Positions 2,727 to 32,302 of a DNA stretch of 32,302 bases are shown here, in pieces. This stretch comes from a virus. Under the pieces are notes generated by a model. It was given only the letters and a program-made list of their open reading frames with translations. It had not been told where the DNA came from and ran no database searches. Within the stretch, counting starts at the first letter, position 1. Every line of letters begins with the position of its first letter. The position numbers and the translations under genes are program-made. Location of the stretch: IMG/VR virus record IMGVR_UViG_3300048587_000743, positions 1 to 32,302 of that record. The stretch is one strand, 5' to 3'.

Positions 2727-3659
2727 ATGTCACATCCGAAAAAAAAGAATAAAACGCCAATTGTATTAGCTATTACCAATCAGAAGGGCGGAGTAGGAAA
2801 GACTGCAACAGCCGTGAATCTTGCAGCATGCTTTGCATACTTGGGAAAATCCACTCTTTTGGTCGACGCTGACTACCAAGGGAACGCAAGTAATCATCTC
2901 GGATTGAAGCTCGCCGCGAAGAGAGAAAACAAGACAATAGCTGACGGACTAATGCGAAATAAGCCCTTGGCTGAAGTGGCTATTCCCACCCAAATAGAAA
3001 ACTTGGAACTTGTTTCTGGCTGGCAAGATTTTTCGGCCTTTAATCACGAAAAGTTCAGCCCTTATAGACTGAAGCGATGGCTGCGAACCGAAGAATTAGA
3101 CCTTTATGATGTTGTCGTGATTGATACGCACCCGGACTTGAGTCATACATTTGCAAACGTGATGGCAGCTTCGGACTACTATATCATTCCGCTTTTTGCG
3201 GAACCCGATAGCTTTGACGGTCTGTCTATTATGTTCAAGGAGATTCGACAGATCCAAGAAGACTTCAATCCAACTCTGTTTTTACTGGGCACTGTGCTCA
3301 CGAAATACATAGGTAGAAACGCGACTCATCGAAAGTTTGAGAAGTTGATAGCTTCTTACGGTGCAGAGAACAACATGCCGATCCTTGGTCGAATACCAAA
3401 TACAGATGCAATGGCAAGCTCGTCTGATATGAGGACGCCGCTGATTTTTTACAAGAGTGCACAGAAGATTCCGGCAAGAGATTGTTATCTAGAATTGGCT
3501 AAAGACTTGATATCTCAACTTCGCGTGCGACGTGGTCGTGTTCCTAAAACCCCAACTATTACAGCCGAGCAGGCTAGTCAAATGCTTAGCGATCTGGATG
3601 TGGTGTTGAAAGAGAACAACGATGATTTCGCAACTGAAGATGTTTTAGAATTCGACTGA
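2727..3659 (+). CDS. parA: ParA partition ATPase
   Basis: This is a 310-residue ParA/MinD-family ATPase. The deviant Walker A motif KGGVGKT is at residues 20-26, the A' motif VDADYQGN is near 46-53, and a Walker B strand ends in VVVIDTHPD near 125-133. Such proteins bind DNA non-specifically with ATP and, with ParB bound to a centromere, move plasmid copies apart. The N-terminus is short and lacks the DNA-binding extension of type Ia plasmid ParA proteins such as P1. It is followed after 25 bp by parB on the same strand and is divergent from the membrane-protein gene. The ATG follows a weak AGGG site. Its composition is more AT-rich than the late genes. Confidence 0.95.
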   Translation: MSHPKKKNKTPIVLAITNQKGGVGKTATAVNLAACFAYLGKSTLLVDADYQGNASNHLGLKLAAKRENKTIADGLMRNKPLAEVAIPTQIENLELVSGWQDFSAFNHEKFSPYRLKRWLRTEELDLYDVVVIDTHPDLSHTFANVMAASDYYIIPLFAEPDSFDGLSIMFKEIRQIQEDFNPTLFLLGTVLTKYIGRNATHRKFEKLIASYGAENNMPILGRIPNTDAMASSSDMRTPLIFYKSAQKIPARDCYLELAKDLISQLRVRRGRVPKTPTITAEQASQMLSDLDVVLKENNDDFATEDVLEFD

Positions 3660-3684
3660 CCTTGCTTAGGGACGAGGAGAAATT

Positions 3685-4581
3685 ATGGCAGATAATGAAC
3701 GCGCTACTGATACGATGTCTGAGATTTCCAGTTCTGATGGACTTGCATTCCACAAGGATCAGTCTGCAGGTCAAGTGAACGGCATCCCTCTACAAATGAT
3801 TAAGATCATCACTGACACTAAGAGCGAAGGGCAGGTTATTAACGTCCCTTTGAAATACTTATCTGACGGTGCAAACGTTCGGAAGAAGATAGATGATGAC
3901 GATGAGTTCAAGGGCCTAGTTGCCTCAATAAAAGAACGCGGGCTGATTCAGTATCCGACCATCGCATATCAAAAAGGCAAGATTTGCGTGATCGCTGGAA
4001 ATAGGCGCGTTGCAGCCGTCCGATCACTCGGATGGGAAAAAGTGAAATGCGTGGTAAAAATTGTAGGGGATGAATCTGAAAGACTTCACATTCAACTTGC
4101 AGAGAACATAAATAGATCCAATCTGAAGCCAGTGGATTACGCCGAAGCTATCCTACAATTCAAAGAGGAGTCAGGACTTACTAACGAAAGAATCGGTGAA
4201 CTTTTTGGGAAAAGCAGAAAATATATAGAGCAGCTCGTCAAGATCGGTTCGTGGCCAGATTCCGTTAAGAATATTATAGAAAGCCACGCTTTAGACATCA
4301 CCCCACTAGTGAAGATAGCGTTCAAAAAGGAATCGAAAGACACCGACTATGTTCTACAAGAAGTAAAGAAGCTTGCGAGCTTGCCGTTGGATGATAGGCC
4401 CAAAAGTGAGAGTGACAAAGCACCCTCCCTTAGTCGCCAACTAGAGAGGCGACAGCTTAAAGTGAAAGAGTGGATATCCAGCAAAGGATATTCAGATTCA
4501 GAATTGAGCATTATTTTGTCGTTTCTGAGAGATATGAACATTCGAGGTTGGCCAGAGGCGATTCCTGGAAATGGTAAATGA
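3685..4581 (+). CDS. parB: ParB centromere-binding protein
   Basis: This is a 298-residue ParB/Spo0J-type protein. An N-terminal tail of about 50 residues is followed by the ParB/Srx domain: VPLKYLSDGANVRK near 54-67, box GNRRVAAVRSLGW at 105-117 (GNRR in place of the usual GERR) and AENINRSNL at 139-147. A helix-turn-helix lies at about 164-186. The C-terminus, about 250-298, would be the dimer region. It binds parS sites, loads onto DNA as a clamp and stimulates ParA. GAGGAG lies 7 nt before the ATG. It forms an operon with parA and faces the end of the late operon. A near-perfect palindrome overlaps its stop codon. Confidence 0.95.
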   Translation: MADNERATDTMSEISSSDGLAFHKDQSAGQVNGIPLQMIKIITDTKSEGQVINVPLKYLSDGANVRKKIDDDDEFKGLVASIKERGLIQYPTIAYQKGKICVIAGNRRVAAVRSLGWEKVKCVVKIVGDESERLHIQLAENINRSNLKPVDYAEAILQFKEESGLTNERIGELFGKSRKYIEQLVKIGSWPDSVKNIIESHALDITPLVKIAFKKESKDTDYVLQEVKKLASLPLDDRPKSESDKAPSLSRQLERRQLKVKEWISSKGYSDSELSIILSFLRDMNIRGWPEAIPGNGK

Positions 4582-11098: not shown

Positions 11099-12400
11099 TT
11101 ATTTTGTGCAGCAGATTGCTGTGGCAATGACCTGCGAGCTGGCGGTGTTGCCTGATGCATCACACTGATAAAAAGGGGTGACGTTGGCGTTGCCTGCGAA
11201 CGGCGTGAATCCTTGAAGCGTGCCGTTGACTTTTTCGCATCCTCCGCCAGTAACCATCTCAGTTGCGGCGCAACGCGCGACTGCGCGGATTTCACCGAGC
11301 CCCGTGGTCTTTCCCGTGGCTATGCGGCAGCTGCCAACCGTTCCTGGGACTCCAGGATCGCCTTTTGCACCCTTCAGTCTTCCAAGATCAAAAAGATCTT
11401 CTGGACCACTGCCATCGTCACAGATGATGTAGGTGGAAGTCGAACCTTCCCAAAGCCTGCAGCTTTTGCCATCTGCACCTTTGGGGCCTTGAGCGCCGGT
11501 GAGGCCAGCGTCGCCTGTCAAACCTCTTGGTCCTGTCGCACCCGTGTCGCCTTTTGGGCCTTTCAGAGATGAGATTTCTATCCAGGTTCCACCGGCACAG
11601 TTGATGCGCTTTGATCTATCGTCATACCAGCAGCCTTCCCCTTGAGGACCTTGGGGACCTGTATCACCTTTAAAACCTTGCGGACCCATCGGCCCGGAAT
11701 CACCTTTATCGCCCTGAGGGCCTTGAGGTCCGGCCGCGCCTGTTTCACCTTTCACACCTTGCAGGCCCTGAAGGCCTTGAGGACCAGTGGGCCCCTGAGC
11801 ACCGGTATCGCCTTTAAGACCCTGAGTCCCCGCCGGTCCGGTATCACCCTTCGCGCCCTGAGGCCCCGCTGCACCCGTATCACCTTTGAGGCCCTGAGGA
11901 CCTTGAGGCCCCGTGGCCCCAGCATCACCTTTCAAACCCTGTGGACCCTGAGGGCCGACGGCACCCACATCACCTTTGAAACCTTGTGGACCCTGAGGGC
12001 CGACGGCACCCACATCACCTTTGGGACCTTGAGGACCTGCCGGGCCAACCAGGCCCGCAGGCGAACCGACCCATTTCCCGGCCCCATCAATAACTGCACT
12101 CTTGCCAACATGGAGGCTTCGCACGTTGACATCCACCGGCATATTCACGTTGCCCGTCGCCCCCGATACGATAACCGATGCAGGACAATCCACCCTGTTG
12201 TTGCAATCTCCAAAAGGGGCGTTCTTATGAACACGAAGGGTCAAGTCTGCCCCCCTGCTGTTGTTTCCGAGGTTGTCGATGAGATAGGTGTTCTCGAAAA
12301 CTGGCGTTGGGTTGTCAGAGAATTGCGGCGCGTCGGCCGCCACGGCACCAACCGTCAGGAATAGAAGAAAAGTCGGTAACAGAAGTTTAAGCGAATGCAT
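11099..12400 (-). CDS. Secreted collagen-like protein inserted between sheath and tube genes
   Basis: The protein has 433 residues. Residues 1-22 form a clear signal peptide: a short basic start, a leucine-rich core, then AVAADA. An N-terminal domain follows to about residue 115. Gly-X-Y triplets run from about 117 to 256, with shorter blocks at 281-311 and 344-356, built of [13 protein letters not shown] and similar units. Between blocks lie cysteine-containing segments (GCWYDD, SCRLWEG) and the last 75 residues hold seven cysteines. Collagen repeats are common in phage fibres, but a Sec signal is not, so it may be a surface protein made by the infected host. Its ATG overlaps the sheath stop as TGATG, with AAGGAT upstream, so it is co-translated with the tail genes. 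Confidence 0.85.
11941..12027. repeat. 45-bp tandem repeat within the collagen region
   Basis: Two adjacent copies with a 45-bp period begin GTGGACCCTGAGGGCC and differ only near the end of the second. They encode 15 residues (five Gly-X-Y triplets) each on the minus strand, suggesting that the collagen domain grew by slippage or recombination. Confidence 0.8.
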
Positions 12401-26738: not shown

Positions 26739-27343
26739 TTCTCACCCCAAACCTTCGCTTTTGCTTTCTCCTGCTCATGGGTACGATAGAGTCTCTCGAA
26801 GCACCTCAGAGCCGCCAGCTGCCAGTACGTCTGCATCGTGAATTCGTCCAGGCATGGCGGCTCGTCAACCCAAAACTCTCGGGTCGATTCGAGCAGCTCG
26901 TGGTACTGATCTTCTGATAGTGTATCCGCGTCAGACACAAGAAGAGACCGACGAGCATCAGCCAAAAGACGCAATATGTCAGACCTTGGCTTCAGCCCAT
27001 ATTGTGGTCTGCTTTTCTCAGACTTTATCGAATCTTCCAACCAATGAACCGCCTCACGCCTGGATCGCTCCTTGACCTTGAACTGCTGAGGTACGGACTG
27101 CATGAGATAATGCGGCGAGTCGATACTTTCGAGAAGCCATTGGAGATTTCGGTGATAGAACATCAGACAGCCGACATCACCCGATAGAGTCACAACACCT
27201 GGAGCGTAGGAGACCTGGAACCAATAGAAAGACTCTTCTGGATGCCGGACCTTGAAATATCCAGTAAGCGCACCACGCTCGCTTTCAATAAGCTCGTGCT
27301 TTGATAGTCTTTCGTCCATGTGCGGATACGGAAACTCTGCCAC
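26735..27343 (-). CDS. Hypothetical protein of the accessory operon
   Basis: GTG 27343 is chosen because GGAGG lies 5 nt before it; a TTG at 27367 would overlap the upstream gene and lacks such a site. The 202-residue product has an aromatic, strand-like first part (ESFYWFQVSYAPGVVTLSGD, VGCLMFYHRNLQWLLESID) and a helical second part rich in charged residues. I do not recognise it. The end overlaps the Lar-like gene, so translation is coupled. Confidence 0.65.
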   Translation of the reverse strand: MAEFPYPHMDERLSKHELIESERGALTGYFKVRHPEESFYWFQVSYAPGVVTLSGDVGCLMFYHRNLQWLLESIDSPHYLMQSVPQQFKVKERSRREAVHWLEDSIKSEKSRPQYGLKPRSDILRLLADARRSLLVSDADTLSEDQYHELLESTREFWVDEPPCLDEFTMQTYWQLAALRCFERLYRTHEQEKAKAKVWGEK

Positions 27344-27356
27344 TTGAACCTCCGAT

Positions 27357-27650
27357 TCATTCTTCAAGATAAATCATCCCTGCATTCCACCAGCGCCCTA
27401 CGGTATTAAGTTCCTTGGTGGGATAGAAACTCTCATAGTTGCGCCCGACCTTTCGCCGTTCTGGCTCAATCAGGCGATTGAGAGCCTTGCTCACAGCCAC
27501 TTTGCTCAGGCCCGTTTTCTCGGCTATTTCCGTCAGCGACCAGCCGACCTGCTTGTATGGGTAGCCTTCAAGATCTCCAACCCATTCCCCATAGGGACGC
27601 CCCCCTTTGCCCTCTCGGGGCCGCTCCTTCGATAGTCTTCCAATCAACAT
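27357..27650 (-). CDS. Small winged-helix DNA-binding protein
   Basis: This 97-residue protein has a helix-turn-helix at about 38-62 (WSLTEIAEKTGLSKVAVSKA) followed by a wing-like segment with FYPTKEL. The first 30 residues are basic and glycine-rich. TGAGG lies 5 nt before ATG 27650. It is the first gene of the minus-strand accessory run and the closest regulator gene to the cluster of operator-like palindromes at 27781-29908, so it is a candidate for the protein that binds them. That link is inference. Confidence 0.75.
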   Translation of the reverse strand: MLIGRLSKERPREGKGGRPYGEWVGDLEGYPYKQVGWSLTEIAEKTGLSKVAVSKALNRLIEPERRKVGRNYESFYPTKELNTVGRWWNAGMIYLEE

Positions 27651-27682
27651 CTTGACCTCAACAATCCCTTAAGATAGGCTTT

Positions 27683-27729
27683 CCCCACATTTTGTTATGT
27701 GGGGGCCGCTCATGAAGCGGCCTTTTTTT
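27683..27729 (+). terminator. Pair of hairpins with a T-run
   Basis: CCCCACAT (27683-27690) pairs with ATGTGGGG (27697-27704). Directly after, GGCCGCT (27704-27710) pairs with AGCGGCC (27716-27722) and is followed by seven T. This is a strong Rho-independent terminator for plus-strand transcripts, though no plus-strand gene is seen to its left. On the minus strand the same hairpins would lie in the leader of the operon starting at 27650. Confidence 0.65.
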
Positions 27730-27772
27730 ATTTCTCACGCCTTGAAAATATCGTCACTTCAATCTTAATCAC

Positions 27773-27801
27773 TTTACAAAGTTAACGCGTTAACTTAGAA
27801 C
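27773..27801 (+). promoter_or_regulatory. Promoter-operator site 1
   Basis: TTTACA (27773-27778), a 17-bp spacer and TAGAAC (27796-27801). The spacer is filled by the palindrome GTTAACGCGTTAAC (27781-27794). It points rightward into candidate RNA L. The same layout recurs at four more places. Confidence 0.7.
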
Positions 27802-27807
27802 TGGTGA

Positions 27808-27889
27808 TGTGTTCAGGAAATACCTGAGCGATCATGTGAGTAGCAAGCCTCACGCGGACCCTAATGGGCGGGGGAATCCGTTCTTTTTT
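27808..27889 (+). ncRNA. Candidate small regulatory RNA L
   Basis: The expected start is about 7 nt after the -10 of site 1. Hairpin 1 is TCAGG-AAATA-CCTGA (27813-27827) and hairpin 2 is GTGAG-8 nt-CTCAC (27836-27853). A GC-rich segment CGGACCC...GGG...TCCG (27855-27880) is followed by TTCTTTTTT. Compared with copy R, hairpin 1 changes its closing pair from G-C to A-T on both sides, and the remaining differences lie outside stems. The total is about 80 nt. The opposite strand of this segment is an open frame without a start codon. Confidence 0.55.
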
Positions 27890-28032
27890 CCGCCGCGCGT
27901 TCAGACCTCCACGGTCCTCCCTGATTTTTGAGACTTCAGCCCGTGTGGCCTTTACTCAGAGCGTGTGATCCGCACCATTGCGACATATGCACCTAAGATT
28001 CCCGGCTTTTTCGCTTCCCTTCCTTGGATACA

Positions 28033-28061
28033 TTTCTAACTTAACGCGTTAACTTTGTAAA
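28033..28061 (-). promoter_or_regulatory. Promoter-operator site 2
   Basis: On the minus strand: TTTACA (28061-28056), 17 bp and TAGAAA (28038-28033), with the palindrome in the spacer (one outer base changed, CTTAACGCGTTAAC). It points leftward through the RNA L region toward the operon that begins at 27650, so it is the probable early promoter for that operon. Confidence 0.65.
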
Positions 28062-28077
28062 GGGGAATTGCTTCCCC
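28062..28077 (-). terminator. Hairpin after the anti-restriction cassette
   Basis: GGGGAA (28062-28067) pairs with TTCCCC (28072-28077) around a 4-nt loop. Reading leftward it is followed by TTTACA, a short T-run that is also the -35 of site 2. It lies 11 bp past the last cassette gene and probably ends that transcript. Confidence 0.5.
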
Positions 28078-28087
28078 TTCCCCTTTT

Positions 28088-28345
28088 TCAGTTGATGGTT
28101 TTATGTGCGTCTCGGATAACCTTCTCACGTAAGCGCGAGCGTAGATGGTCCCGCAAGTCAATCACATCCATAAAAGGCTCCTCGCAATCGTCAAGCCTGT
28201 CATCCGTTATGATGTCCTGGTGCTCTAAACAGATTGCGAGAACTTCACCCACAGAAAGCCTTGCCACAAATGAATTGCAGACCTCCCACCGTTTGGAAAC
28301 AGGTACGCGCTTGCAATAAGTGAGTAAACTTTCATAGGTCAACAT
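28088..28345 (-). CDS. Small hypothetical protein, last cassette gene
   Basis: This 85-residue protein starts at ATG 28345, with GGAGGA 5 nt upstream, rather than at an ATG 13 codons earlier. It begins MLTYESLLTYCKRVPVSKRW, and the rest is helical and charged with an acidic patch (DDRLDDCEEPFMDVIDLRDH). No family is recognised. It overlaps the preceding gene by 14 bp, so it belongs to the same operon as the ArdA-like gene. Confidence 0.7.
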   Translation of the reverse strand: MLTYESLLTYCKRVPVSKRWEVCNSFVARLSVGEVLAICLEHQDIITDDRLDDCEEPFMDVIDLRDHLRSRLREKVIRDAHKTIN

Positions 28346-28745
28346 GTGCTTCCTCCTGCTTCGCAACATATCCCTGGGATGCAATATTCTGCAGCCATGT
28401 TGTCAGGAAAGCATTCTGCTCTTTCTGCCTGCGTGGCCAGAAACTTTTGCGGTCTTCTGTGTATACCGGAATCGCGCGCATGCCAGCGTGCTGAATGGAA
28501 AGCGCTTCTATCGTCCCGTCTTTTACTTCCAGAATCATTTCCGGGTCTACCAGAAGATCCCCGTTGCAGCTGTACCAATGAGCCATTGCAACAAGTATTC
28601 TACCTTTGCCGCGTTCGATGACTTCGACACTCAAGGGCATATATCCTGAAGATTCCAGCCGCGTGTATGACTTGATCTGTTCATAATTCCGAATATCAAG
28701 AATATTGGCAAATCGTCTGAAATTTCTCTCATATACTGTCGTCAT
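28332..28745 (-). CDS. DUF6908-like protein of phages and plasmids
   Basis: This 137-residue protein starts at ATG 28745, with TGAGGTC 5 nt upstream. It has the order seen in a small family common on plasmids and phages: an N-terminal helix, then SSGYMPLSVEVI, then ILVAMAHWYSCNGDLLVDPE, and a C-terminal helix with LTTWLQNIASQGYV. The fold and function of that family are not known to me. It lies directly after the ArdA-like gene, a frequent association on mobile DNA. The family name is from memory of the pattern. Confidence 0.7.
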   Translation of the reverse strand: MTTVYERNFRRFANILDIRNYEQIKSYTRLESSGYMPLSVEVIERGKGRILVAMAHWYSCNGDLLVDPEMILEVKDGTIEALSIQHAGMRAIPVYTEDRKSFWPRRQKEQNAFLTTWLQNIASQGYVAKQEEAHVDL

Positions 28746-28753
28746 GATTGACC

Positions 28754-29245
28754 TCATGGGTAATAGAAAACACCATCATCTGTTTCAAGATATCCAAGAC
28801 TTTTCAGGTAGAATCCATAGGCGTCGGCATCAATGTAATCAGCCAAGTACGCGTTAAAATCTCCCATAACCCCGCTCGCAAGGTAAAGAATAGCCACCTC
28901 TGTGAGGCCCATTCCCTCGTAGTAGACCACGCTATCAAACAGTTCCAGAGCAGAGGATAGCGTGCATTTTTTGTGCTGTATCAGGTAGAAAAGTCTTGCT
29001 GTATCAAAGTCCGAGAATCCCTTCAGAATACGAGCCTGTTCATTCAGCTTGAAGATATCGCAATCCTCGTGGACCAGTCCCGTATCGTCATCCTCCCACA
29101 TGCTCAGGACAACTTCGCCAGTGCTTTTGGCTCGAATATCTTTCATTGCTCGGGCCAATTCTGTGCTTGTTGTGGGCAAAACAAGCCATCTATCGAGAGT
29201 AAAGCCAAGGTTTGCGGCTTCCCGGTTTGCTATACAGACCCGCAT
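28754..29245 (-). CDS. ardA: ArdA-like antirestriction protein
   Basis: This 163-residue protein has a strong ribosome site (GGAGGA before ATG 29245). ArdA-type features are an early WLVLPTTSTELARAMKDI, the acidic stretch SMWEDDDTGLVHEDCDIFKL, then a helical middle and the end YIDADAYGFYLKSLGYLETD, which resembles the common YxDYExxGR...GYF ending of the family. ArdA proteins are elongated acidic dimers that mimic B-form DNA and block type I restriction and modification enzymes. The N-terminal domain is shorter than usual, so this is a divergent member. It is second in a four-gene operon. Confidence 0.75.
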   Translation of the reverse strand: MRVCIANREAANLGFTLDRWLVLPTTSTELARAMKDIRAKSTGEVVLSMWEDDDTGLVHEDCDIFKLNEQARILKGFSDFDTARLFYLIQHKKCTLSSALELFDSVVYYEGMGLTEVAILYLASGVMGDFNAYLADYIDADAYGFYLKSLGYLETDDGVFYYP

Positions 29246-29256
29246 AATTCCTCCGT

Positions 29257-29502
29257 TTAGTGCAAAGCCACAGCGAAGAGATCGCCGTCCTGCTCAAGAC
29301 GCCATCTGACACCATTCTTGTCAATATACACTGCGTGCTGCATCACTTCGTCCCAGGCTTCCCAATAGTCGGGCGTTTCTGCATCTCGAAGCGCCAAGTA
29401 ATCATTCGTATCAAGGCCCCAGCTGGGCAGGTCGAAAATATCAAAGAATGTTGCTGGTAAGTTGGTACCCCAGAATCCATCAATCAAAAGTACGCGATCC
29501 AT
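29257..29502 (-). CDS. Small acidic protein, first cassette gene
   Basis: This 81-residue protein starts at ATG 29502, with GGAG 6 nt upstream. It is acidic and aromatic-rich, with DYWEAWDEVMQHAVYIDKNG and WRLEQDGDLFAVAL. Similar short proteins with a W-D-E-V core occur beside antirestriction genes on mobile elements, to my memory, but the function is unknown. Site 3 lies 52 bp upstream and is the likely promoter of the whole cassette. Confidence 0.75.
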   Translation of the reverse strand: MDRVLLIDGFWGTNLPATFFDIFDLPSWGLDTNDYLALRDAETPDYWEAWDEVMQHAVYIDKNGVRWRLEQDGDLFAVALH

Positions 29503-29553
29503 AAAAACTCCATTTTGTTAGTGGGTAGGGCTTACTTGCCCTTCATGAATATA

Positions 29554-29582
29554 CTTATAAGTTAACGCGTTAACTTTGTAAA
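29554..29582 (-). promoter_or_regulatory. Promoter-operator site 3, driving the anti-restriction cassette
   Basis: On the minus strand: TTTACA (29582-29577), 17 bp and TATAAG (29559-29554), the best -10 of the set. The spacer holds GTTAACGCGTTAAC (29561-29574). It points at the four-gene cassette starting at 29502. Confidence 0.75.
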
Positions 29583-29628
29583 ATGCTTTCCTACTTATTT
29601 TGTTGAGATAATATTAACTATTTTGATG

Positions 29629-29657
29629 TTTTCATAGTTAACGCGTTAGGTTAGAAT
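29629..29657 (+). promoter_or_regulatory. Promoter-operator site 4
   Basis: TTTTCA (29629-29634), 17 bp and TAGAAT (29652-29657), with a partly degenerate palindrome GTTAACGCGTTAGG in the spacer. It points rightward, divergent from site 3 and convergent with site 5. A strong ribosome site and a three-codon frame follow at 29674-29700. Confidence 0.6.
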
Positions 29658-29742
29658 GATATCAGAAACAAAGAGGAGGGAAACGATCATGAGCCACTAA
29701 ATTTCGCCGCTGAGACGGCATCAGCTATCTGAGTAAAGACCG

Positions 29743-29907
29743 ATGAAGGTTGAATGCTCAAAAATGCGGGAAAACCGTGGAAATCCGAGCGCCACAAAAG
29801 AAAAAGGTCGGATTCCCCCGCCCATCAGGGTCCGTGTGAGGCTTGCTACTCACATGCCCGCTCAGATATTTTCTGAACACATGTACATTTCTAAGTTAAC
29901 GCGTTAA
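29743..29907 (+). CDS. Possible small basic protein overlapping RNA R
   Basis: A 54-codon frame from ATG 29743 ends in TAA inside the site 5 palindrome. It encodes the basic stretch RIPPPIRVRVRLATHM. The left module keeps the same stretch in an open frame on the minus strand ending at 27782 but has no ATG, GTG or TTG at the matching place. No ribosome site precedes ATG 29743. The frame may therefore be a by-product of a conserved RNA on the other strand; both readings are kept. Confidence 0.3.
   Translation: MKVECSKMRENRGNPSATKEKGRIPPPIRVRVRLATHMPAQIFSEHMYISKLTR
29796..29881 (-). ncRNA. Candidate small regulatory RNA R
   Basis: This is the partner of RNA L, expected to start near 29881, 7 nt after the -10 of site 5. 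Hairpin 1 is TCAGA-AAATA-TCTGA (29876-29862) and hairpin 2 is GTGAG-8 nt-CTCAC (29853-29836). The GC-rich segment bounded by CGGA and TCCG (29834-29809) is followed by CTTTTTCTTTT. The loops of hairpins 1 and 2 are identical to those of copy L. Transcription from site 4 would produce its exact antisense. Confidence 0.55.
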
Positions 29908-29916
29908 CTTTGTAAA
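29888..29916 (-). promoter_or_regulatory. Promoter-operator site 5
   Basis: On the minus strand: TTTACA (29916-29911), 17 bp and TAGAAA (29893-29888), with a perfect GTTAACGCGTTAAC (29895-29908) in the spacer. It points leftward into RNA R. Confidence 0.7.
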
Positions 29917-30174
29917 GGTGAATATCCGTGATATGAGGAAAGCAGGGCAATACTGCAAGAGTCTGATCCTCCATAGTCCCCTGGAAGTTGTCAAAAGAAT
30001 TAGCGCCCTTACGACATACTTCGCAAAGCTTTCCTCGTTCTTTGCAAGAACCTCAAACAAACCATATTTACTGACGTCTAGACGATGGTTTTCGTTTTAC
30101 GTAAAAGCCAAAGGGCAATATAGTTGAAAGTCTGATAGCATCAACACATCCCATGTAGATTCCGGAGCCGAAAC
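29917..30174. other. Region between the right module and the response regulator gene
   Basis: No convincing gene is seen. A 69-codon frame at 29918-30127 (plus) begins with GTG but shows no family pattern. A 12-bp palindrome TTTTACGTAAAA lies at 30095-30106 and could be an operator for the downstream gene. Confidence 0.4.
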
Positions 30175-30594
30175 GTGTCTACGAGAACGATACTTATCAT
30201 CGATGATGATATTCAGGTTTTAGAAACAGTAGCAGATTTACTTGACGCAGTTGGCTTTAATGTAATCAAAGCCAACGACGCTGAGTCTGCCTTTGATATT
30301 CTTAAAGGATTCAAAGTCAGCGCAGTGCTCACAGACTTGATAATGCCAGGAATGAGCGGGATAGGCTTCGCCCAAAAATTGACTCAAAGCCAACCTGGTA
30401 TCGCGATTGTGATTTATACTGGAGCAGACATTGGAGATTTCGATTTATCAATCTCGAACATACACTCGGTTGTTACAAAACCCTCTTCACCACAAATATT
30501 GATTGATACTCTTTCAAAAGCAATTTCTGAAGCAAAGTTATCAAATCAGAAAAAAATTTTGGATTCTTCAAAGCAAAAATCAACCAAGAACTAG
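30175..30594 (+). CDS. Single-domain response regulator (REC)
   Basis: This 139-residue protein starts at GTG 30175, with GGAG 7 nt upstream. It is one receiver domain: acidic pair in TILIIDDDIQ (9-12), phospho-acceptor D54 in AVLTDLIMPGMSG, threonine T82 in VIYTGAD and lysine K102 in VVTKPSSP. These are the conserved positions, so phosphorylation by a host histidine kinase is plausible. A short basic tail (KKILDSSKQKSTKN) follows and there is no output domain. Such stand-alone receivers act by binding partners, as in chemotaxis or cell-cycle control. It is one of only three clear plus-strand genes in the window. Confidence 0.9.
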   Translation: MSTRTILIIDDDIQVLETVADLLDAVGFNVIKANDAESAFDILKGFKVSAVLTDLIMPGMSGIGFAQKLTQSQPGIAIVIYTGADIGDFDLSISNIHSVVTKPSSPQILIDTLSKAISEAKLSNQKKILDSSKQKSTKN

Positions 30595-30689
30595 TCGAGA
30601 CTCTTAGCTATCGCCAAAATTATCAGATATCTCAAATAGATAACATGCAACTTTTCGCCTCATTTTTTGCTCAAGACGAACTCCTTAGT

Positions 30690-31532
30690 TTAAGATTTTC
30701 GACCAAGATGAATGTAGGCTACATTGTAAACAGTGATATAATTCTTTCCTGTTTTTGACGATTTTCTGCACTTTCCGTATACCATCGCATAACGACCAAT
30801 CAATTTTTCACGCGATTTAATCTTGAAGGCTGCATGAAAGTCATCCAGGAAAGCATCATCTATAACTATGGACAGTTGATCTCTCCCAGTATTCAACCAC
30901 TTCTTCTTGATATCAGCGTACTGAATCACGCCCCAGTATAGAAAATATTCTCCGTCTGACTGTGCGTCTCTGAACTCTCTAAAAATTTCATTGAAATAGC
31001 GTGTCTTTCCATTGACAATAAAACTTCTATCTCGCTTAACCATTTCATCATCATCAATCACCCAAGAAAGCAGCTTCTTTAGGTTTAGAACTGGAGATTT
31101 CTCTTCCACAGGATTTTTATCGTGAGATTTGCGAACAATGATTTTGCCTTTACCTGACGCTGCAGCTTCCTGAACGATTTCTGAGGTATTTTTTGGCTTT
31201 TTTCGAGTCTCTAAGGGTGACCTAAAAACCAATTCAAGTTCTTGTTTCGATCGCATTACCCTTGATACAGATTTTTTCGTCTTCTCAATACTCTGAATCT
31301 TTGCTTCCCGCTCATCAGGACTGAGCCCACCACACAAAGCCTCTAAGTGTCTGGCCCCAAAGCAAGGGTCGTTTCCGTTCTTTGATCTCTTTCGGAAGTA
31401 GGCATCTCCATCGCACTCAAGGCATTGCAGATGCTGGCGTCTATAGCGCAGATCTGAAGGAGCAAGCCTCTCAAACTGAAATGCGTTGTATTTAATCTTC
31501 AGCTTTCCATCGTTGAATCGGGCTTCAAACAT
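30690..31532 (-). CDS. Protein with an N-terminal cysteine/histidine motif, unknown
   Basis: This 280-residue protein starts at ATG 31532 behind GAGGAA. Residues 35-70 hold LQCLECDGDAYFRKRS, then PCFGARHLEALCGG, a likely zinc-binding knuckle that resembles a motif at the start of some nuclease-like proteins (CoiA-like), though no nuclease domain is visible after it. Residues 80-150 are basic and probably disordered. The C-terminal half (150-280) is mixed helix and strand with YFLYWGVIQYADIKKKW. The function is unknown. The ribosome site can be paired in a hairpin (31536-31579). Confidence 0.65.
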   Translation of the reverse strand: MFEARFNDGKLKIKYNAFQFERLAPSDLRYRRQHLQCLECDGDAYFRKRSKNGNDPCFGARHLEALCGGLSPDEREAKIQSIEKTKKSVSRVMRSKQELELVFRSPLETRKKPKNTSEIVQEAAASGKGKIIVRKSHDKNPVEEKSPVLNLKKLLSWVIDDDEMVKRDRSFIVNGKTRYFNEIFREFRDAQSDGEYFLYWGVIQYADIKKKWLNTGRDQLSIVIDDAFLDDFHAAFKIKSREKLIGRYAMVYGKCRKSSKTGKNYITVYNVAYIHLGRKS

Positions 31533-31535
31533 TTG

Positions 31536-31579
31536 ATTCCTCGTAAATACCTGATTAAATGGAAGGTTCTACGAGGAAT
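31536..31579 (-). promoter_or_regulatory. Hairpin covering a ribosome-binding site
   Basis: Arms ATTCCTCGTA (31536-31545) and TACGAGGAAT (31570-31579) are perfect 10-bp inverted repeats with 24 nt between. In the minus-strand transcript the second-read arm contains GAGGAA, the ribosome site of the gene starting at 31532. Pairing would hide it. Alternatively the repeat is an operator. Confidence 0.5.
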
Positions 31580-31583
31580 ATAT

Positions 31584-32302
31584 TCAATTACTGCCAACTA
31601 GCAAGCTGTAGAATGCCGTCCTGACCTGCGCCGGTACCACCCCGTTGCCCAGGGCTTTAAAGCGGTCCATCCGGTGGGCACACCCATCAGCCACTCGACG
31701 AATTCCACATTCAGAAGCCCACCCACCGAATCGCTCAAAGGCAGGGAATTGCGATTTTTTCCCGCCTGCCCCGGCTTCCGGTAGTCCTTGGTCATCGGCG
31801 TTGGCCAGCAATTCTGCCTCGCCATTTGATGAAGAGACGGGCGTCGCTTCGCTGAGTCGCGGCAGGAACGATTGCTGCCGGAATGCTGAGCCATTGGGGT
31901 TGGCAGCAAGCAGGAACCACCTGTTCCGGATGTGCGGCGCACCGACCTCTTGAGCGGATAGCATACGCCATCGGCAATCATGCCCTCGGCTGGCAAGTTC
32001 CTGGAGAACGCGGTCCAGGCCTCGTGTTCTGATAGCCGGCACATTCTCAAAGAACAGGAAACTCGGCTCGATTTCATCGACGAGACGCATGATCTCGAAA
32101 AAAAGACCTGAGCGCTTTCCCGCCAGGCCTTTGCCAGTACCTGCGCAACTGATGTCCTGGCAAGGAAAGCCGCCGTATATGATGTCGATGGTTCCTCGCC
32201 AGGGCCGTCCATCCAATGTTGTGATGTCGTCCCAGATCGGTGCAAATGGGATGTCGCCATCAGCCATCCTTGAAAGAAGGATCGACTGAGGGTATCGCTC
32301 GA
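31584..32302 (-). CDS. DNA (cytosine-5)-methyltransferase, 5' end cut by window edge
   Basis: The frame is open from the right edge through ATG 32267 to a stop at 31584. Residues before that ATG (ERYPQSILLSRM) fit the family, so the start lies outside. Counting from that ATG, motif IV GGFPCQDIS has catalytic C36, motif VI is ENV (74-76), motif VIII is RNRW (114-117), and the end ALGNGVVPAQVRTA is motif IX-X. The target-recognition part is short, as in many phage enzymes. Motif I (the SAM loop) is off the window. No restriction endonuclease is seen beside it, so it may be an orphan enzyme protecting the element's DNA. Confidence 0.92.
   Translation of the reverse strand, partial: ERYPQSILLSRMADGDIPFAPIWDDITTLDGRPWRGTIDIIYGGFPCQDISCAGTGKGLAGKRSGLFFEIMRLVDEIEPSFLFFENVPAIRTRGLDRVLQELASRGHDCRWRMLSAQEVGAPHIRNRWFLLAANPNGSAFRQQSFLPRLSEATPVSSSNGEAELLANADDQGLPEAGAGGKKSQFPAFERFGGWASECGIRRVADGCAHRMDRFKALGNGVVPAQVRTAFYSLLVGSN

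Follow-up and report, generated by a model that had tools for sequence, protein, structure and literature searches.

Paired inverted modules around the ArdA operon

The window analysed here, a virus record of 32,302 nt (IMGVR_UViG_3300048587_000743, taken over its whole length), carries an operon for the antirestriction protein ArdA that is flanked by two inverted modules of ~289 bp, module A at 27773-28061 and module B at 29629-29916. Two convergent promoter-like sites delimit each module; they have the form TTTACA-17-TAGAAN, with the palindrome GTTAACGCGTTAAC in the spacer, and a fifth such site lies ahead of the operon. The outer site of each module (P1 and P5) faces a segment of ~80 nt that comprises two hairpins and, on its 3′ side, a GC-rich stem terminating in a T-run, here called RNA A and RNA B; modules and operators are seen directly in the DNA, and the transcripts are inferred. 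An earlier model reading of the letters (the original prediction) had described both the paired inverted modules with convergent promoters around anti-restriction genes and RNA segments of this size and make-up. The first description is borne out by the arms 27772-27888 and 29801-29917, which are 90% complementary over 117 nt, and the second by the presence of the segments in both modules.

Searches of a viral collection with RNA and operator DNA patterns recovered the cassette in two other records only. These are 99.9% identical to each other and were therefore counted as one further phage genotype (the second phage), adding two module copies. The elements of the modules are as follows.

27773-27801, plus strand: P1, outer promoter-operator of module A, TTTACA-17-TAGAAC, with GTTAACGCGTTAAC at 27781-27794; 96.6% identity in the second phage
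27808-27890, plus strand: RNA A, with hairpin 1 (27810-27830), hairpin 2 (27836-27853), 3′ stem (27855-27880) and T-run (27884-27889); predicted start and end
28061-28033, minus strand: P2, inner opposing promoter-operator of module A, TTTACA-17-TAGAAA
29582-29554, minus strand: P3, promoter-operator ahead of the ArdA operon, TTTACA-17-TATAAG
29629-29657, plus strand: P4, inner opposing promoter-operator of module B, TTTTCA-17-TAGAAT; 96.6% identity in the second phage
29881-29797, minus strand: RNA B, with hairpin 1 (29879-29859), hairpin 2 (29853-29836), 3′ stem (29834-29809) and a T-rich tail; predicted start and end
29916-29888, minus strand: P5, outer promoter-operator of module B, TTTACA-17-TAGAAA; 100% identity in the second phage

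The palindrome (G)TTAACGCGTTA(AC) lies in the 17-nt spacer of all five sites, with one deviation from GTTAACGCGTTAAC in P2 and two in P4. With up to three mismatches allowed, the promoter-operator word had six occurrences in the window, against 0.00 per shuffle, and the operator-promoters were confined to the cassette both in the window and in a 63-kb relative. P3, the fifth operator copy, has the best -10 box (TATAAG). The operator sequence was not found in the literature searched. We also considered a miniature inverted-repeat transposable element: the operators do make up terminal inverted repeats, but we saw no target-site duplication, and promoter function accounts for the repeats.

Conservation and fold of the RNA segments

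We compared the two phages base by base. The core of RNA A (27809-27880, ~72 nt) was 93.1% identical between them, whereas its flanks reached ~63% overall (43% just before, 70% just after and 61% at 27961-28030) and the third codon positions of three neighbouring genes 57-72% (~61% overall). The difference was clear against both the flanks (p=5e-6, Fisher) and the third codon positions (p=1e-8), which argues that the RNA segment itself is under selection. Together with the 97-100% identity of P1, P4 and P5, this comparison suggests that sequence-specific constraint acts on the RNA core and the operators. No open reading frame (ORF) in the RNA core is preceded by a good Shine-Dalgarno sequence, and both RNAs are probably non-coding. 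A frame of six codons whose ATG, at 27807, coincides with the start of RNA A was rejected as too short and lacks this ATG in the second phage.

RNA A and RNA B differ at six positions over 73 nt. Two of the six change one pair of hairpin 1 from G-C to A-T on both sides (27817/27823 vs 29872/29866), and the remaining four, as the original prediction had it, fall in linkers or a loop; this placement assumes a fold with three stems. With the two copies of the second phage (G2A and G2B) added, nine of the 73 columns vary among four distinct copies. Four of the nine lie in hairpin 1, where one column pair is the two-sided G-C/A-T exchange and two adjacent pairs swap U-G/U-A for U-A/U-G; the other five lie in linkers or loops. 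No stem pair is broken in any of the four copies, so that the homologues that could have spoken against the fold, those of the second phage, keep every pair. When the same changes were placed at random, all pairs stayed intact in 8% of trials (P=0.08), and 2% did so with at least four variable stem columns. Stem preservation thus favours the fold and is suggestive only, because random placement so often has the same outcome. The compensatory change that had been proposed stands as a two-sided exchange in hairpin 1; it concerns a single pair, and the unbroken pairs are not significant alone.

The folding energies were moderately low (z -1.6 to -2.0). The U-G pairs are kept on the strand read from P1 and P5, which favours that strand as the RNA, because the opposite strand would carry A-C. 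Hairpin 2 can be extended by GGG/CCC pairing in RNA B, G2A and G2B, and this extension is impossible in RNA A of the window, which has GATC. The 3′ part of the segments reads CGGACCC...GGGGGAATCCG and is followed by the T-run; a generic terminator scan flagged RNA A (27866-27883) and did not flag RNA B.

An alternative is that the modules act as DNA, the paired operators serving repressor looping and the inverted repeats exchanging sequence or flipping the ArdA segment, with the RNA incidental. The operators are spaced ~258 bp apart (259 bp in one module and 258 bp in the other), and the two copies of the second phage differ at 2 of 73 positions, with two columns phage-specific in both copies, as gene conversion would give. 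However, the conserved core is enclosed by the operators and finishes with a stem and T-run, the U-G pairs are retained on one strand only, and the two phages do not differ in the orientation of the cassette; we consider a purely DNA-level role improbable.

The ArdA operon and a candidate repressor

The operon and the genes to its left, which run on the same strand and include those of a 97-aa helix-turn-helix (HTH) protein and a 210-aa protein, comprise the following.

29257-29502, minus strand: acidic protein of 81 aa with a net charge of -11, encoded first in the ArdA operon
28754-29245, minus strand: ArdA antirestriction protein, 163 aa (Pfam PF07275, E=1.8e-7)
28332-28757, minus strand: DUF6908 protein of the ArdA operon, 141 aa (Pfam PF21849, E=1.6e-23)
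28088-28384, minus strand: small ORF, last in the ArdA operon; no family matched
27357-27650, minus strand: 97-aa HTH protein, candidate repressor; weak HTH/MarR matches below cut-offs

The HTH protein is 94% identical in amino acids between the phages, compared with 77-79% for its neighbours P98 and P210, and is a candidate autorepressor acting on the common operator. The genes of the 81-aa, ArdA and DUF6908 proteins (28420-29500) are 93-98% identical between the phages, against 74-88% for the genes on the left of the cassette, and the uneven gene identities suggest that the cassette itself has a mosaic history. The untranslated DNA at 27651-27772, which precedes the HTH gene, is 86-98% conserved and has two hairpins side by side; a separate leader or a promoter reading leftward may lie within it.

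Predicted opposing transcripts

The inner promoters P2 and P4 point towards the RNA segments from the other side, and their transcripts would traverse a common conserved block before the complement of the RNA. The elements on their paths, together with nearby terminator-like sites, are listed here.

27901-27960, minus strand: conserved block of the P2 transcript, CTGAGTAAAGGCC...CTCAAAAAT..GGG..ACCGTGG; 81.7% identity vs 60.6% in the next 70 nt
29728-29792, plus strand: conserved block of the P4 transcript, counterpart of 27901-27960
27701-27731, plus strand: terminator-like hairpin and T-run just upstream of P1 (terminator scan)
28060-28079, plus strand: terminator-like hairpin past module A, which would keep transcription of RNA A from continuing into the antisense strand of the ArdA operon
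29674-29679 and 29689-29700, plus strand: Shine-Dalgarno sequence AGGAGG and three-codon ORF ATG AGC CAC TAA at the head of the P4 transcript

On the minus strand, the terminator scan found no terminator-like site from P2 to 27650, so transcription starting at P2, or reading through from P3, can extend into the HTH gene. The leader of such a P2 or P3 read-through transcript is the exact complement of RNA A and nearly that of RNA B; near-perfect duplexes were predicted for both RNAs with both opposing transcripts, as the sequence dictates.

The three-codon ORF is the sole ORF in either module that a Shine-Dalgarno sequence precedes, and encodes MSH* in the window and MSY* (ATG AGC TAC TAA) in the second phage. 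A type I toxin-antitoxin pair was rejected, as the modules hold no other ORF of this kind. Very short ORFs after a strong ribosome site are also found in the lambda bar minigenes, from which this one differs in its codons and in its restriction to module B. The gene that P4 points at in the window encodes a response regulator (30175-30594) and is absent there in the second phage. The gene belongs to a stretch (29924-31601, with a 280-aa ORF) that the second phage lacks at this position, and a related response regulator is found among the head genes of the 63-kb relative (L009 2044-2346).

The main rival to reading the RNAs as a timer on the repressor, as set out below, is a role in trans in the host. 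RNA A and RNA B would then act on host or phage functions as small RNAs, or as decoys that titrate an RNA-binding protein of the host, and be expressed together with ArdA; the opposing promoters would merely limit the amount of RNA, and two copies would raise the dose. The 26-nt 3′ part CGGACCCTRATGGGCGGGGGAATCCG has one variable base among the four copies, which is more constraint than a terminator requires, and the RNA core is more conserved than most of its antisense partner transcript. A duplex scan of start regions, on the other hand, gave no target near start codons that was conserved in both phages, though the scan was crude and uninformative, its energies being dominated by long loopy duplexes. 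We give a trans role a modest chance of being correct.

Genomic context and distribution

The window encodes the gene set of a contractile-tail phage, with a GpA-type terminase, lambda-type portal, S49 peptidase, capsid E, sheath, tube, GpU, GPD and tape measure. Between the sheath and tube genes, 11099-12400 encodes a 433-aa protein with collagen-like repeats (PF01391, E=1.6e-28). ParA and ParB are encoded at 2727-4581, and because of these partition genes the phage is probably a phage-plasmid. The structural genes bear on one further reading of the inverted repeats beside ardA, namely single-stranded-DNA promoters of a plasmid leading region. Such Frpo-like promoters drive anti-restriction genes (PMC8708921), but tail, capsid and terminase genes imply entry of double-stranded DNA, and P3 is an ordinary duplex promoter-operator; among the explanations weighed here, this is the least probable.

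In the second phage, 26784-29923 is kept at 87% identity with the order unchanged, and homology stops directly past P5. A third phage (L012, a 24-kb fragment) is 85% identical to the window over 12 kb of structural genes and has the gene of a 1056-aa protein (L012 723-3893) in the position of the cassette. From this comparison we regard the ArdA cassette as accessory, because a close relative has a different gene at that position. The 1056-aa gene adjoins the same DNA methylase as the ArdA cassette, marking a hotspot for accessory genes. Operators and RNA were missing from the terminase relatives G003-G006, several of which are fragments.

The accessory status bears on plasmid copy-number control of the ColE1 RNAI/RNAII or CopA type, a likeness drawn in the original prediction. 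The modules resemble ColE1 in their convergent promoters and complementary structured RNAs, and the phage has ParA and ParB. They differ in having no link to replication and no rep gene after P2 or P4, and in a 3′-terminated sense RNA present in two inverted copies that flank anti-restriction genes; L012, although a 24-kb fragment, has another gene at the position of the cassette. Copy control is accordingly most unlikely.

Comparison with known RNAs

The RNA segments matched no Rfam family, in agreement with the original prediction, which knew of no described RNA with these sequences; the Rfam model of the STAXI motif, which is found near antirestriction genes, was not matched either. In plasmids and reference phages, DNA searches for near as well as distant matches returned nothing but three chance matches of 26 nt, and neither the RNA pattern nor a terminase query gave a match in genome contigs. 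Queries with ArdA and the HTH protein in viral contigs returned the same two records and one 26-residue match. Judged by these searches, RNA A and RNA B belong to no catalogued RNA family.

The c4 RNA of P1 and P7, with which the original prediction had compared the segments, is 77 nt long and acts in trans on the ant mRNA (PMC12197685). A c4-type immunity RNA, in which loops of the RNA base-pair at an antirepressor gene's ribosome site, would be similar in size (both at ~77-80 nt), with two hairpins, and is likewise found in a phage with partition genes. However, the C4 model (RF01695) was unmatched by cmscan even at E<=5, the crude duplex scan gave no conserved antirepressor target, and RNA A and RNA B, unlike c4, would have a promoter and terminator of their own and a full complement made from an opposing promoter. 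Membership in the c4 family thus did not hold up, and a c4-type function is very unlikely.

Another parallel is offered by P22 sar (68/69 nt) and lambda OOP (77 nt), short terminated RNAs facing a phage regulatory transcript (PMC12197685). RNA A and RNA B would likewise be short, terminated and read from a promoter that faces a regulatory transcript; they are set apart by occurring as an inverted pair and by a palindrome that the sense and opposing promoters share. By analogy, they may work like these cis-antisense phage RNAs inside an establishment cassette of the Aca type.

A possible establishment circuit

Phages and plasmids need their anti-defence genes on right after entry and off soon afterwards. 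The reading we put forward, tentatively and as a good possibility short of an even chance, is that the locus is an accessory anti-defence ("establishment") cassette comparable to acr-aca operons, with the HTH protein as autorepressor and antisense RNAs delaying the build-up of the repressor. A single repressor, for which the 97-aa HTH protein is the most likely candidate, would bind the palindrome in the five promoters and keep them off in a carrier cell. When the phage enters a cell that lacks the repressor, all five would fire together: P3 would yield ArdA and its partners, P1 and P5 the structured RNAs A and B, both short and terminated, and P2 and P4 the complementary transcripts. RNAs A and B would then lower or delay repressor synthesis, either by RNA-RNA pairing or by colliding transcription on the P2/P3 transcript, and the delay would set the length of the burst; RNA B would act likewise on the P4 transcript. 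Conservation and gene order are observed; the identity of the repressor and the pairing with its effect are inferred. The narrower proposal, that the two inverted, co-evolving antisense RNAs are a timer holding back their own repressor transcript until the burst ends, is rather doubtful, and the three-codon ORF is a possible further control on such a timer.

The gene order fits an establishment scheme. As in acr-aca and p576-type establishment genes, anti-defence genes are followed in the same direction by a small HTH gene, with one common inverted-repeat operator, and a transient burst would be expected. Anti-defence genes are often kept silent by a small repressor and expressed in a transient burst once they enter a cell without it (PMC8708921, where the parallel with phage anti-CRISPR operons is drawn); the Aca repressors (PMC9410906, PMC9410881) are another precedent. 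The cassette departs from acr-aca in its five operators over two transcription directions, in encoding ArdA rather than an anti-CRISPR, in its two antisense small-RNA modules and in an HTH protein that was assigned to no Aca family in Pfam/NCBIfam, PHROGs, PADLOC and PDB scans.

Several observations weigh against this reading. The HTH protein had no family above cut-off in Pfam and NCBIfam and weak HTH matches in PHROGs, PADLOC and PDB, and its AlphaFold model from two sequences was poor (predicted local distance difference test score 44). The region of complementarity is at least ~160 nt upstream of where translation of the HTH gene would start, away from its ribosome site. In the second phage no sense gene lies close downstream of P4; with no conserved gene behind P4, module B is therefore not explained by a repressor target in cis. 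A generic sigma-70 scan listed P4 alone of the five sites and gave no excess of promoter-like matches (5 vs 5.1 in shuffles). The -10 boxes are imperfect (TAGAAC, TAGAAA and TATAAG, without the final T), and most sites were missed because their last -10 base is not T; promoter activity is therefore argued from the -35 box, spacing, repeated placement and conservation. RNA B, at 90.3% identity between the phages, contrasts less clearly with its flanks (p=0.02), because the module B side of the cassette is less diverged overall. Finally, the cassette is known from only two phage genotypes in the viral collection searched.

The earlier interpretation is partly supported. It did not include the shared operator, its fifth copy driving ardA, the candidate HTH repressor gene or the Shine-Dalgarno sequence with the three-codon ORF, and because of these features an establishment regulon is the better frame for the modules. 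To our knowledge, known anti-defence switches are protein repressors or single-stranded promoters. If the timer reading is true, the cassette has an RNA layer atop an Aca-like circuit, and a conserved RNA pair wired to anti-restriction operators would add to the known switches a compact RNA timer that can be tested with reporters.

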